Shown here piece by piece: positions 35,843 to 39,168 of a DNA stretch of 39,168 bases. The DNA is from a virus. The number at the start of each line of letters is the position of its first letter. The stretch's first letter is position 1. The DNA lies in IMG/VR virus record IMGVR_UViG_3300005096_000118, positions 1 to 39,168 of that record; one strand, written 5' to 3'. The notes below the pieces were generated by a model that made no database searches, was not told the origin of the DNA, and worked only from the letters and a program-made list of their open reading frames with translations. The position numbers were made by a program, and so were the translations under genes.

Positions 35843-36036
35843 GGCCGCGAAGCGGGCAACAACAATTCAGGCGATGGCAAACTCAATTCGCCGCCGTTGG
35901 GAAGCCATGAGTGCCGTCGTTGCTTAGGTAACGGATATACAATTTTCCACGAGGATGGCAGAACTTATCAGGATAGATGTTCATATTGCGGAGGCACGGG
36001 AGCGAAGTGACTGAAAGGAGCTTCGCGGCTTCCCAA
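35724..36036 (-). mobile_element. Integron cassette 1 (next to attI)
   Basis: A 313-bp unit between the attI-like core GTTGGGA (36031-36037, minus strand) and the attC-like end at 35724. It carries a zinc-finger ORF on the opposite strand that overlaps attC. An 18-base near-perfect inverted repeat (35836-35853 and 36020-36037) lies within it. Confidence 0.55.
35750..36010 (+). CDS. Cassette 1 protein, DnaJ-type zinc motif
   Basis: An 86-residue protein. It begins M-Y-C-E-F-C then C-T-C-E, and ends with C-R-R-C-L-G-N-G and C-S-Y-C-G-G-T-G, two halves of the DnaJ-type zinc fold (CxxCxGxG). The middle (residues 27-50) is low in pattern because it is encoded by the attC hairpin arms. GAGGGG stands eight bases before the ATG. 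The function is unknown; it may bind protein or RNA. Confidence 0.65.
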   Translation: MYCEFCNEYFEYCTCEKGIAYRKSASNELLGGREAGNNNSGDGKLNSPPLGSHECRRCLGNGYTIFHEDGRTYQDRCSYCGGTGAK

Positions 36037-36060
36037 CAGATATTAATCAGCAACTAGGCA
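36031..36060 (-). other. attI-like region
   Basis: On the minus strand TTGCCTAGTTGCTGATTAAT is followed by ATCTG|TTGGGA. This places one core site directly before intI and a weaker GTT (in AGTTGCT) 17 bases away, the usual layout of attI with two integrase-binding sites. The exact limits cannot be set from sequence alone. Confidence 0.5.
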
Positions 36061-36073
36061 AATATACACAATT

Positions 36074-37096
36074 ATGAAACTATCAGAAGTTATTAATTCA
36101 GTACGCAATACCATGCGATTCAGGCACATGTCTATTCGCACGGAAAAATCGTACATAATCTGGATTAAAGATTTTTCAAAATGGTGTAAAAATCACCCTG
36201 TTGGTGGCCACGGTGACAAACTTAAAGCTTATTTGACACATCTGGCACGAACAAGGAACGTGGCAGCAGCTACCCAACGCCAAGCACTAAATGCCATCAT
36301 ATTTTTATACAAGAATGTATTAAAAATTGATATTGGCGATATTTCAGGGTTCGCCTATGCTAAAAAGCCACGTACTTTACCTGTTGTTTTATCACAACAA
36401 GAAATAGCAGCGTTATTACCAAACATTGCTGGACAAAACTATTTAATCGTTGCGCTGCTTTATGGCGCAGGTTTACGATTAAACGAGGCTTTATCTATTC
36501 GCGTCAAAGATATCGATTTTGATCGTGGCATTATTACTGTTCGCCAGGGTAAAGGAAACAAGGATCGAGCAGTTATGTTGCCATCAACAATTGCTGATGA
36601 TTTGCAGTATCATATTAAAGAAGTAAAACGCATTCACAGTCGTGATTTGGCAGAGGGTTTTGGCGATGCTTACATGCCAAACGCTTTGGATCGCAAGTAC
36701 CCAGGCGCGGTTAAGTCGTTTTCATGGCAATTTGTTTTCCCCGCCACTCGCATTGGCCCTGATCCACGTACTGGTGCTTTACGGCGGCATCATATTCATG
36801 ATTCCGCGGTGTCAAAGGCCATCAAGTCAGCAGCACGGGTGGCTGGCATTAAAAAGCCTGTAGGCGCTCATACAATGCGCCACAGCTTCGCTACGCATTT
36901 ACTTGAATCAGGCACTGACATTCGTACTATTCAGCAGCTACTAGGCCATAAGCACGTTTCAACGACGATGATTTATACGCATGTTTCAAAATCAGGCGCC
37001 GCTGGTGTTGCTAGCCCATTGGAAAATTTAGCCGGGGATGTTTCGCCATCTCGCGTTTCAACGTGGCCACATCAACGGCAAGGTAGCGCAGGGTAG
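36074..37096 (+). CDS. intI: Integron integrase (IntI)
   Basis: A 340-residue tyrosine recombinase. Arg135 (G-A-G-L-R-L-N-E-A-L), Lys160, His266/Arg269 (H-T-M-R-H-S-F-A-T-H-L-L), His292 (L-L-G-H-K-H-V-S-T-T) and Tyr301 (M-I-Y-T-H-V) are all present. The IntI-only patch lies at about 191-240, with A-L-D-R-K-Y-P-G-A then W-Q-F-V-F-P-A then D-P-R-T-G-A-L-R-R-H-H. This patch separates IntI from Xer proteins and is needed to bind folded attC DNA. The N-terminus (R-H-M-S-I-R-T-E-K-S-Y) is also typical. It reads away from the cassettes. No LexA box is visible upstream. The enzyme looks functional. Confidence 0.95.
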   Translation: MKLSEVINSVRNTMRFRHMSIRTEKSYIIWIKDFSKWCKNHPVGGHGDKLKAYLTHLARTRNVAAATQRQALNAIIFLYKNVLKIDIGDISGFAYAKKPRTLPVVLSQQEIAALLPNIAGQNYLIVALLYGAGLRLNEALSIRVKDIDFDRGIITVRQGKGNKDRAVMLPSTIADDLQYHIKEVKRIHSRDLAEGFGDAYMPNALDRKYPGAVKSFSWQFVFPATRIGPDPRTGALRRHHIHDSAVSKAIKSAARVAGIKKPVGAHTMRHSFATHLLESGTDIRTIQQLLGHKHVSTTMIYTHVSKSGAAGVASPLENLAGDVSPSRVSTWPHQRQGSAG

Positions 37097-37982
37097 TATG
37101 GATATCTTTATGCCCAAGAAACGTTTGCACGACTCTCAGATCGCAGCCACGCTCTATGAGGCGTGTGGCAAAGGCCGCGCGCAACAGGTGCGGATAAAAA
37201 CCTTCCCATGGTCTCCTGTTAGCGGTGGCGTTTATTCTGTCATAAGCGCGGCCGATACCAATAGCTGGCCGAGCATAACGATTAACGATTTCCCAAATAC
37301 TTCGCGGTGTCGAAAACGATTTTCCGCGATGAGTAATAAACAGGCTCGAATTTTTACCTGGGCGAGCTGTACGGCGTTTTTTAAACCATTCATGCAGCAA
37401 GAAGTGCATTGGTACCGAGTATGGCAACCGGCGCGATTGACGGCCATCTGCAGACAGCATGAGCAGCCTGTGATCATCGAGCACGCTGCCAATAGTGAGG
37501 CCGACCACCTCGGCAGCAGTAATACCAGTTTCATAGATCAGGCGCATAATTACATGATCTCTAAAACCAACAAAAGCGGTCAAATCAGGCTCAGCAAGAA
37601 GGCGGCCAATTTGAGACTCACAAAGCAAATGCGGCAGCTTTTTTGGTGCCCGGTGCGACTTTGGAATAAGATCATTAATGGCCGTTTCGACATAACCGGA
37701 TTGATAAGCCCATCGATAAAACGACCTCAATACAGTCAGATCCAGATTAAAGGTAGACACCTTTACCTGGTGCCGCCGCGCTCTAATCCACTGGTGTAAA
37801 GAGTCTTTCGATGGCGATAATAAAACAACAAAAACCGACCACCGCAACAAAACAGATCGATACAATCGACGTGTTTCAGTGCTTCTATTACCGAAATTCA
37901 GGTAACAATCATACCGTCTTAAAATCTCTTGGTCAGAGACTTCAAGTTTACTATAAGACGGTTTTAACACGGGTAAAGACAT
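37011..37982 (-). CDS. Tyrosine recombinase lacking the first catalytic Arg
   Basis: A 323-residue protein with a core-binding domain (residues 15-110) and a catalytic domain. His265/Arg268 (H-L-L-R-A-A-F-A-T), His291 (F-L-G-H-K-D-I) and Tyr300 (L-R-Y-L-A) are present. However, the box that normally reads T-G-x-R reads E-T-G-I-T-A-A-E-V, so Thr155 replaces Arg I. It may be inactive, depend on a partner such as host XerC/D, or act as a regulator. Its last 86 bases overlap the end of intI on the opposite strand. Confidence 0.75.
   Translation of the reverse strand: MSLPVLKPSYSKLEVSDQEILRRYDCYLNFGNRSTETRRLYRSVLLRWSVFVVLLSPSKDSLHQWIRARRHQVKVSTFNLDLTVLRSFYRWAYQSGYVETAINDLIPKSHRAPKKLPHLLCESQIGRLLAEPDLTAFVGFRDHVIMRLIYETGITAAEVVGLTIGSVLDDHRLLMLSADGRQSRRLPYSVPMHFLLHEWFKKRRTARPGKNSSLFITHRGKSFSTPRSIWEIVNRYARPAIGIGRAYDRINATANRRPWEGFYPHLLRAAFATRLIERGCDLRVVQTFLGHKDIHTTLRYLAVDVATLKREMAKHPRLNFPMG
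37913..37962. repeat. Nested inverted repeats in recombinase 5' region
   Basis: ACCGTCTTA (37913-37921) and TAAGACGGT (37954-37962) are perfect arms. A second hairpin TCTCT-N5-AGAGA lies inside. They sit in the first 25 codons of the minus-strand recombinase. They could be a self-regulation site, a recombination core, or an RNA hairpin that limits translation. Confidence 0.5.
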
Positions 37983-38212
37983 TTAGTTGTAATTACTCTA
38001 ATTCGCTAACTAATTGTTTTGCAACAACAATACAATAATAATAAGGGTATAAAAATGCTATTTAACATAATATACATTTGTTTACGCAGTTCGTTAATCT
38101 CTTTATTTTTTAACGAGTTACGCTCTTGTAACAAAAAATATAATAAATTATACACAGTCATACCGCAACTATTTATCGGTGTGTTATCAGTGTTTCGCGT
38201 ATAGGTCTCGTC
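37983..38212. other. AT-rich intergenic region before replication genes
   Basis: A 230-bp stretch, much more AT-rich than the rest of the genome. It should hold the promoters of the rightward replication genes and the leftward recombinase. A short frame (ATG 38055, 49 residues, hydrophobic) follows AAGGGT but is not convincing. I see no tRNA or strong terminator. The low melting stability would suit DNA unwinding near an origin. Confidence 0.5.
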
Positions 38213-38980
38213 ATGGCGCGTGCAAGAAACATTAAACCAGGGCTGTTTAAAAATGAAATTCTGGGTGAGGCTAATCCACTTTACACAATATTATTTGCAG
38301 GACTTTGGTGCCTGGCAGACAAAAGCGGGCGATTGGAAGACCGGCCAAAACGAATAAAAGCCGAAGTTTTTCCGTATAGATTTGATCTTGACGCAAGCAT
38401 GGCTCTTGCTTGGCTCAACGATAACTCATTCATAAAACGGTACACAATCGATGGTGAAAACTACATTCAAATCCTAAAATGGAGAAAACACCAGGCGCCT
38501 CACCACAAAGAGACAAACTCAGTAATACCGGATTTTAAAGAGTGTAATAATATAGAAGAAAATCAACAGCATGCGCAAGCTAAAGCCAAGCATGGCTCAA
38601 GCATGGTTCAAGCTTGCGTTAAGCATAACGCTTCTTGCCCCACTGATTCCCTTAACCTGATACCTGATTCCCTTAACCTGATTCCTGAAGTTAATACCTC
38701 TCTCTTATTGCAAAATTTTGAACCAAATGAGCTGACTTTGGAATTTATAAAATCTTACAAATTACCAAAACCAGAGTCATCACACATCGCATCATTTATT
38801 TCACACCACGAAATTAAAAAAACATTTTTCAAAGATGGACGAGAGGTTCAGGCAGCGTTCAAGCGCTGGATGTCACGCCAAGCAGTTTTTGATAACCAAA
38901 AAAATCCCGGAGGAAATAATGCTAAGCAATCAGCAAGCGAATTACACGCCGAAGCAAATGCGGCAGCCTTTGAGCAATAA
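38213..38980 (+). CDS. Replication initiation protein, O-like
   Basis: A 255-residue protein. The N-terminal part (K-P-G-L-F-K-N-E-I-L-G then L-F-A-G-L-W-C-L-A-D-K-S-G-R-L-E-D-R-P) is a winged-helix domain frequent in phage replication initiators. The C-terminal part (F-K-D-G-R-E-V-Q-A-A-F-K-R-W-M-S-R-Q) resembles the DnaT-like ssDNA-binding domain. The middle is low-complexity because the DNA there consists of iterons. It overlaps the P-like gene by 62 bases. It should bind the origin and recruit the P-like loader and host DnaB. Confidence 0.75.
   Translation: MARARNIKPGLFKNEILGEANPLYTILFAGLWCLADKSGRLEDRPKRIKAEVFPYRFDLDASMALAWLNDNSFIKRYTIDGENYIQILKWRKHQAPHHKETNSVIPDFKECNNIEENQQHAQAKAKHGSSMVQACVKHNASCPTDSLNLIPDSLNLIPEVNTSLLLQNFEPNELTLEFIKSYKLPKPESSHIASFISHHEIKKTFFKDGREVQAAFKRWMSRQAVFDNQKNPGGNNAKQSASELHAEANAAAFEQ
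38577..38684 (+). repeat. Iterons, probable replication origin
   Basis: Five 11-base units follow without gap from 38577 to 38631: AAGCTAAAGCC, AAGCATGGCTC, AAGCATGGTTC, AAGCTTGCGTT and AAGCATAACGC. Twelve bases later a 21-base unit occurs twice (38643-38663 and 38664-38684) with one difference. Lying inside the O-like gene, this is the same arrangement as the lambda origin. Confidence 0.65.
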
Positions 38981-39168
38981 AAATATTTCTCAGTTATTTG
39001 TTCGACTTGGATCTAACTACGGCCACTTGTGGACCAGTGCCTGGAAAACTGCAGAATTGATTGAAGCAGCCAGGAAAGAATGGGCGTTAGAGCTTGGTTG
39101 TTACGATACTGGAACGATCGGCATGGCATTACGCAAATGTAAAGCGACTTATCTCAATCACGCGCCGA
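38919..39168 (+). CDS. Replication protein P-like helicase loader (5' part of gene spanning the junction)
   Basis: It starts at ATG 38919 with GGAGG six bases upstream and continues across the circular junction to 279 (145 residues in all). The N-terminal part reads Q-L-F-V-R-L-G-S-N-Y-G-H-L-W-T-S-A-W, a pattern common in phage P-type proteins (YGH-W). It overlaps the O-like gene, so the two are co-translated. The part at the beginning of the window carries the conserved C-terminal region. Confidence 0.8.
   Translation, partial: MLSNQQANYTPKQMRQPLSNKNISQLFVRLGSNYGHLWTSAWKTAELIEAARKEWALELGCYDTGTIGMALRKCKATYLNHAP
39078..39168. repeat. Terminal direct repeat (circular-assembly overlap), copy 2
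   Basis: Identical to positions 1-91. It should be counted only once when the genome is closed. Confidence 0.95.

Follow-up and report, generated by a model that had tools for sequence, protein, structure and literature searches.

Replication genes and repeats at the end of the window

The window analyzed here is an IMG/VR virus record of 39,168 bases, taken at its full length. Near its right end lies a gene for an O-like replication initiator, and a gene for a P-like helicase loader follows directly on the 3′ side (Table 1). The N-terminal part of the initiator matched three PHROG replication initiation families, phrog_16167, phrog_12556, and phrog_1408 (E values of 4.8e-43, 1e-35, and 1.9e-19, respectively). 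The top PHROG match of the protein was phrog_17247 (3.1e-48), a family without a named function, and no Pfam or NCBIfam family was matched. Among named relatives, the next replication gene is a P-like, DnaC-like, DnaB-like, or primase/helicase gene, and in two relatives it carries no name. Since the type of downstream replication gene varies, the initiator is the constant partner.

An AT-rich block separates the O-like gene from a leftward integrase gene. An earlier note on this DNA had offered the block as a melting region or promoter. Its AT richness held up, and promoter DNA is the more likely of the two, but a promoter scan returned only chance-level results (4 sites, none on the plus strand, versus 3.1 expected). 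GC skew, suggested in the same note as a check near 38.6 kb, was uninformative: over the whole window it gave no origin pattern and nothing at the repeat site. Rfam gave no match in 36000-39168. Two convergent tyrosine recombinase genes with overlapping 3′ ends (36074-37096, plus strand, and 37011-37982, minus strand) lie to the left of the O-like gene, and a C-5 cytosine DNA methylase gene (PF00145; 34332-35291, plus strand) lies about 3 kb to its left.

Table 1. Features of the initiator locus in the window
Feature	Coordinates	Strand	Evidence or sequence
AT-rich intergenic block, possibly promoter region	37983..38212	.	28.7% GC
O-like replication initiator gene, 255 aa	38213..38980	+	PHROG match
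Distal iteron copy in N-terminal coding region, CAAGCATGGCT then CTTGCTTGGC	38394..38414	+	exact CAAGCATGG
Five contiguous 11-bp iterons (AAGCNNNNNNN)	38577..38631	+	repeat analysis; family autocorrelation at 11/22/33 bp
Heptamer array	38643..38691	+	CTGATTC CCTTAAC CTGATAC CTGATTC CCTTAAC CTGATTC CTGAAGT
P-like helicase loader gene, runs past window end	38919..39168	+	phrog_109, E 2.4e-6

Two kinds of repeats lie in frame within the O-like open reading frame (ORF), as the earlier note had described, and both were confirmed. The first consists of five contiguous 11-bp iterons, in order AAGCTAAAGCC, AAGCATGGCTC, AAGCATGGTTC, AAGCTTGCGTT, and AAGCATAACGC. Their lag-11 score of 23/33 was equalled in 1 of 2,000 codon shuffles and in 21 of 2,000 synonymous shuffles of the gene. 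The second is a 21-bp direct repeat (38643-38663 and 38664-38684; 95% identity) that encodes the peptide DSLNLIP twice; its score was equalled in 0 of 2,000 codon shuffles and 10 of 2,000 synonymous shuffles. When any lag from 6 to 30 was allowed, the lag-11 score was reached in 1 of 300 codon shuffles and the 21-bp score in none of 300. The exact iteron core CAAGCATGG also occurs at 38394, about 190 bp upstream of the iterons. There are three exact copies in the whole window, all of them inside the O-like gene; with one mismatch allowed, the 9-mer shows no enrichment over the window (10 versus 13 expected).

The 21-bp repeat is made of three 7-bp units, which together span seven codons, and it is better read as a 7-bp array that extends to about 38691. 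CTGAWTC occurs 13 times in the window versus 5.6 expected, with three occurrences at the array within 42 bp. The CCTTAAC units occupy the frame in which CTGATTC would create a TGA stop. GC content over the 150 bp after the array is 28 to 32%, compared with 41% for the gene.

The heptamer is conserved among initiator relatives

In a first set of 15 initiator genes (the window and 14 phage records), exactly the same 21 bases, CTGATTCCCTTAACCTGATTC, were found at the same place in the initiator genes of phages Louie, yong1, MD-2021a, 41E34.2, and 1.038.O, whose N-terminal domains are 39 to 56% identical to that of the window. Relatives were then chosen by the N-terminal domain alone, with a profile of the N-terminal 107 residues searched against genome contigs (best 80 of 227 relatives) and viral contigs (best 80 of at least 573). 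These 160 loci are thus the best-scoring relatives, and the two sets overlap. CTGAWTC was present at least once within the gene in 150 of 160 loci and at least twice in 145. Two of the 10 loci without a match (L218 and L270) are truncated; by eye, CTGACTC variants are present in L221 and L274 and CTATAAC/CTGTAAC in L157. Loss of the repeats in relatives had been named in the earlier note as evidence against an origin; most relatives retain both kinds of repeat.

Adding 17 genes (window, phages, and first contigs) to the 160 loci gave 177, of which 124 remained at less than 85% identity over the first 300 bases. These nonredundant genes hold 474 heptamers, whereas 100 within-gene synonymous shuffles averaged 90 and never exceeded 115. 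Hosts of the genome loci belong to eight named phyla, with labels that are approximate because many of these loci come from metagenome bins. For the 80 genome loci, an array within the gene was counted in 53/56 from Pseudomonadota, 13/15 from Bacillota, 2/3 from Acidobacteriota, and 1/1 each from Omnitrophota, Thermodesulfobacteriota, Nitrospirota, Melainabacteria, and Chloroflexota; it is not in the gene of the single locus without a phylum. The array is present in 19 of 5,426 E. coli genomes. It was also seen in seven PLSDB plasmid records from Escherichia, Salmonella, and Enterobacter (including OX345037.1, OX345447.1, and NZ_CP081778.1), which are perhaps phage-plasmids.

Selection acts on the DNA of the array

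For a codon test, arrays were recognized by peptide alone and compared with the rest of the same genes. Ile was encoded by ATT in 178/189 cases in arrays (366/1,131 elsewhere), Asp by GAT in 275/281 (629/1,202), Leu by CTG in 180/223 (561/1,784), and Ser by TCN in 280/281 (427/727). In the 23 genes with at least 58% GC, the Ile contrast was larger (ATT in 24/26 in arrays versus 32/172 elsewhere). Selection on the heptamers thus acts on DNA rather than on peptide.

CTGATTC is read as CTG ATT C in 185 cases and as xCT GAT TC in 289, and the third frame holds TGA. Closure of that frame explains both the CCTTAAC unit and the 7-, 8-, and 14-bp steps between heptamers. Steps of 7, 8, 14, and 15 bp (124, 64, 74, and 47 cases, respectively) account for 309 of the 340 steps no longer than 30 bp. 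All 124 of the 7-bp steps go from phase 0 to phase 1 and, with the TGA frame shut, 8- and 14-bp steps can only return; these phases follow arithmetically from exclusion of the stop frame and so illustrate the model rather than test it independently. More informative are the step lengths, which run in units of about 7 bp, and the identity of the unit skipped in 14-bp steps, CCTTAAC in 45/74 and CGGATTC in 8/74. Such units are heptamers altered so that TGA is lost.

These data bear on a protein-level explanation, in which selection would keep DSLNLIP or LIPDS as a short linear motif (one that contacts a helicase or clamp, for example) and the DNA repeats would be a consequence. The array does lie in the same frame in all 119 loci with the 21-mer (the initiator start motif was recognized in 109), but that frame is the only open one over the 21-mer, so its constancy is expected. 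Against a protein motif, codon choice in the heptamers is far more rigid than codon usage would give, two reading frames of this DNA yield different residues, and pure heptamer tandems exist where translation in the array direction is impossible. Moreover, the heptamer-coded residues fall in a low-confidence, probably disordered linker. We therefore consider a protein motif very unlikely. The earlier note had read the repeats as forcing a repeated peptide. The peptide is indeed encoded twice; what is conserved is a 7-bp DNA array, and DSLNLIP, LIPDSLIP, and similar repeated peptides look like by-products of cis-acting DNA.

Heptamer arrays also occur outside the initiator gene

Three pure heptamers in a row have a TGA in every frame of their own direction and are therefore unreadable that way. 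Viral contigs contained 49 stretches with three pure heptamers in a row, consisting of 48 new loci and L132, in which a pure tandem accompanies the 21-mer. A common layout, with GAGCCCGG or AGCCGGG directly before the array, was found in 36 of the 48; these arrays have 5 to 9 copies, except for L314 with 3 at a contig end, and in 26 loci the upstream DNA is distinct. An O-like gene is present in the available stretch of 26 of the 48 loci; 23 of these genes contain no heptamer and 3 contain one, and hence none of the 26 has an array. Six of the 26 ORFs are short (74 to 137 aa), some being cut by the stretch end. The other 22 loci have no O-like gene within the stretch examined. In L343 and L350, the array comes directly after a short O-like ORF, and at some loci reverse-strand ORFs cover the array. 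In L330, pure CTGATTC heptamers lie reversed inside an 819-nt ORF that was not matched as O-like, beside 12-bp GGAAGGCTTTAC repeats. L335 has heptamers in several clusters apart from one another, and no O-like gene was seen in the 14 kb examined.

For ten loci whose O gene has at most one heptamer, the complete record was searched for CTGATTCCTGATTC. It was found in L239, L241, L244, L251, and L201 and was absent from L157, L181, L221, L274, and L296; the reversed control pattern occurred in none of the ten records. Eight of these records have no CTGAWTC in the O gene, and four of the eight lack CTGATTCCTGATTC elsewhere (L157, L181, L221, and the viral L274). For array-less viral O genes, 4 of the 5 searched have a tandem elsewhere in the record, L274 being the one without. 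The four records L239, L241, L244, and L251 form one lineage (92 to 94% identical to each other), and in them every forward frame over the array is stopped.

Arrays in noncoding DNA might point instead to some other cis signal, for packaging, transcription control, or partition, located in the initiator gene by chance. L311 and L339 were read in detail, and both have the array in an intergenic position next to a repressor-like gene; the L311 neighbor matches cI genes by BLAST, and L339 looks alike. However, apart from records such as L157, L181, L221, and L274, wherever the family initiator was found the array lay in its gene or in the same record. The array also adjoins iteron-like DNA in the loci read, and the genes downstream of it vary. 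We judge another cis signal improbable.

Ordinary slippage of repeats in a disordered linker, with no function, would agree with the variable copy number of the array, and such repeats could explain the 9 of 48 pure-array loci that lack both the common layout and, in the available stretch, an O-like gene. Slippage does not readily account for the same heptamer in genes whose N-terminal domains are 39 to 69% identical to that of the window, or for its occurrence in hosts of many phyla while the adjoining iterons diverged, and we find it scarcely credible as a general explanation. Whether inside or outside the gene, a conserved two-part element at the DNA level is tied to this initiator family.

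The iterons vary with the initiator clade

The 75 bp before the array were compared in 115 nonredundant genes. Autocorrelation was 0.409, 0.361, and 0.356 at 11, 22, and 33 bp, respectively, versus mostly 0.22 to 0.30 at other lags (0.335 at 21 bp). Across these 115 genes and the 48 pure-array loci, the best lag was 11 in 72/163 and 21 in 28/163. The iteron sequence classes differ among relatives (e.g., AAGCAC, CCGAT...ATCGG, and CCGTTA). On a tree of the N-terminal domain, drawn from few columns, iteron class changes 6 times, compared with 21 in shuffles, and 0 of 200 shuffles were as low; classes were assigned with hand-made patterns that left 65 of the 124 genes unclassified and assigned each of the other 59 to a single class. 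That iteron class follows initiator clade fits recognition by the N-terminal domain, and shared descent would also give common iterons. A distal copy, defined as a 9-mer common to the linker iterons and gene nt 160 to 209, is present in 19 of 115 nonredundant genes, compared with a mean of 4.4 and a maximum of 11 in 1,000 permutations; three control stretches were not enriched. Averaged over the family, the AT content of the array exceeds that of its gene by 9 points and the flanks are not AT-rich, so that a classical melting tract is not evident, although in the window the 150 bp after the array are AT-rich relative to the gene.

AlphaFold2 (AF2) models from 49 sequences gave pLDDT values of 88 to 98 for the 10-residue blocks from 11 to 120 and of 43 to 51 for those from 131 to 190. 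The predicted helix/strand order of the N-terminal domain fits a winged helix; a low-confidence linker and less confident C-terminal helices follow. The heptamer-coded residues (about 144 to 160) have pLDDT values of about 50, and the iteron-coded residues (about 122 to 140) straddle a helix end. Foldseek searches with the AF2 model matched mostly winged-helix proteins, weakly (best E value of 0.0089, none at 0.001). Against solved structures, the N-terminal profile returned three matches, led by a designed trefoil-knot protein (E value of 0.00099); all were treated as chance.

Distant relatives carry other short arrays

Among 25 nonredundant genes related to Tyrion or Streptomyces phage Ididsumtinwong, a 7-bp period was strong (at least 17/21) in 11 and weaker in 5; another period was best in 9. 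Tyrion-like enterobacterial phages (L139 and L377-L434) have GGATCAG heptamers in reverse orientation in the same linker, and the unit of the Streptomyces type is GGGAACA. A more distant subset (L426, L429, and L432) has 5/10-bp GGAAG/GGAAA repeats instead of GGATCAG. The initiator gene of Mycobacterium phage Bernal13 (L141) has both an 8-bp GGAACAGG linker array (lag 8 = 23/24) and 11-bp repeats (lag 11 = 24/33), each with 0 of 500 codon shuffles as high. CGCGAGACAYT-like 11-bp repeats lie at two places upstream of the 8-bp array, the second found by eye. Lag 11 was not significant in Tyrion (69/500 codon shuffles) or Ididsumtinwong (172/500). Mx8 and Mock2 have neither repeat type, and ct7QV12 has lag 11 only.

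These relatives bear on the possibility that the winged helix of the initiator recognizes the heptamers as duplex, leaving the 11-bp units to another binding partner or to a purely structural role in the DNA. High conservation is common to the N-terminal domain and the heptamer, and each has changed in the distant Tyrion and Streptomyces phages. On the other hand, it is iteron class that tracks the N-terminal clade, and steps of 7 or 8 bp leave the helix face, while 11 bp nearly keeps one face. We regard this assignment of the two repeats as unlikely.

A putative origin inside the initiator gene

We consider it highly probable that the initiator gene of this phage contains its replication origin, an arrangement like that of lambda although built from different parts, namely, variable iterons and a constant heptamer array. 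The winged-helix-like N-terminal domain of the O-like protein would bind the 11-bp iterons, probably one per helical turn, and the distal copy about 190 bp upstream is probably bound by the same domain. The initiator complex on the iterons would then probably engage the heptamer array, perhaps as a single strand. By analogy with lambda (PMC7466680), this engagement may open the duplex and allow helicase to be handed to the P-like loader. The array is thus probably an opening or loading element. Because the array is more AT than the gene but the flanks on average are not, we propose sequence-specific engagement, by analogy with DnaA, RctB, and plasmid Rep proteins.

The broader proposal, which we see as evenly balanced, is that phages of many bacterial phyla share an unnamed, sequence-specific 7-bp origin element that the initiator recognizes as it opens the strands or loads the helicase. 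Such an element would be conserved near letter for letter while the iterons diverge, bent by TGA avoidance within the gene and a pure tandem outside it, with other heptamers, some reversed, in distant branches. In the open-licence PMC literature, no description of a heptamer array was recognized from titles and abstract starts, and searches with motif and peptide strings matched unrelated papers only; older subscription papers could describe single cases. That the 7-bp repeat is so nearly invariant among related phages from widely differing bacteria points to a standard, so far unnamed component of many phage origins. The heptamer would serve as a simple DNA marker by which to locate the origin in many temperate phages and prophages with an initiator of this family. 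With variable iterons and a constant heptamer, a possible determinant of origin specificity can be told apart from a possible helix-opening element, and the opening step becomes directly testable by synonymous recoding. The array also illustrates clearly how cis-acting DNA can shape a protein.

Comparison with known origins

The earlier note had likened the arrangement to the lambda origin despite a different protein, and the comparison bears this out: the repeats lie within the initiator gene, a P-like loader gene is next, and no similarity to lambda O was detectable (hhalign probability of 0.3 per cent, a weak test that used a single lambda O sequence and a shallow profile). A published account of lambda likewise places the origin repeats within gene O, with the P gene adjoining (PMC7466680). 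In the lambda origin, as in phi80 gene 15 and the Stx phages, the origin repeats sit in the middle of the initiator gene and a P-like loader gene adjoins, as in the window. The parts differ. Lambda has four 18-bp iterons with starts 20 to 24 bp apart and phi80 has four 15- to 16-bp sites 20 to 21 bp apart, whereas the window has 11-bp units and a 7-bp array. The heptamers occupy the position of the AT-rich tract of lambda; as a family mean their flanks do not share that AT richness, although in the window the DNA after the array is 28 to 32% GC.

By published description, oriL in gene 38 of SPP1 also resembles the window in having direct repeats within the initiator gene. According to the part of that source consulted, the gene 38 product binds repeats in its own gene and a second origin, oriR, lies outside the gene; the same part describes direct repeats and an AT-rich unwinding element and mentions no heptamer array (PMC6316719).

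A short repeated motif adjoining double-stranded initiator sites, as proposed here, is also found in the DnaA-trio, in RctB action on V. cholerae ori2, and in the RK2 13-mers. DnaA, RctB, and plasmid Rep proteins engage single strands sequence specifically, as stated in a published account (PMC10797057). The complement of the heptamer, GAATCAG, contains the (G/A)ATCA motif given there for ori2, a likeness that may be coincidence. The DnaA-trio is a 3-nt repeat by a DnaA box, whereas the unit described here is 7 nt long and lies in phage initiator genes.
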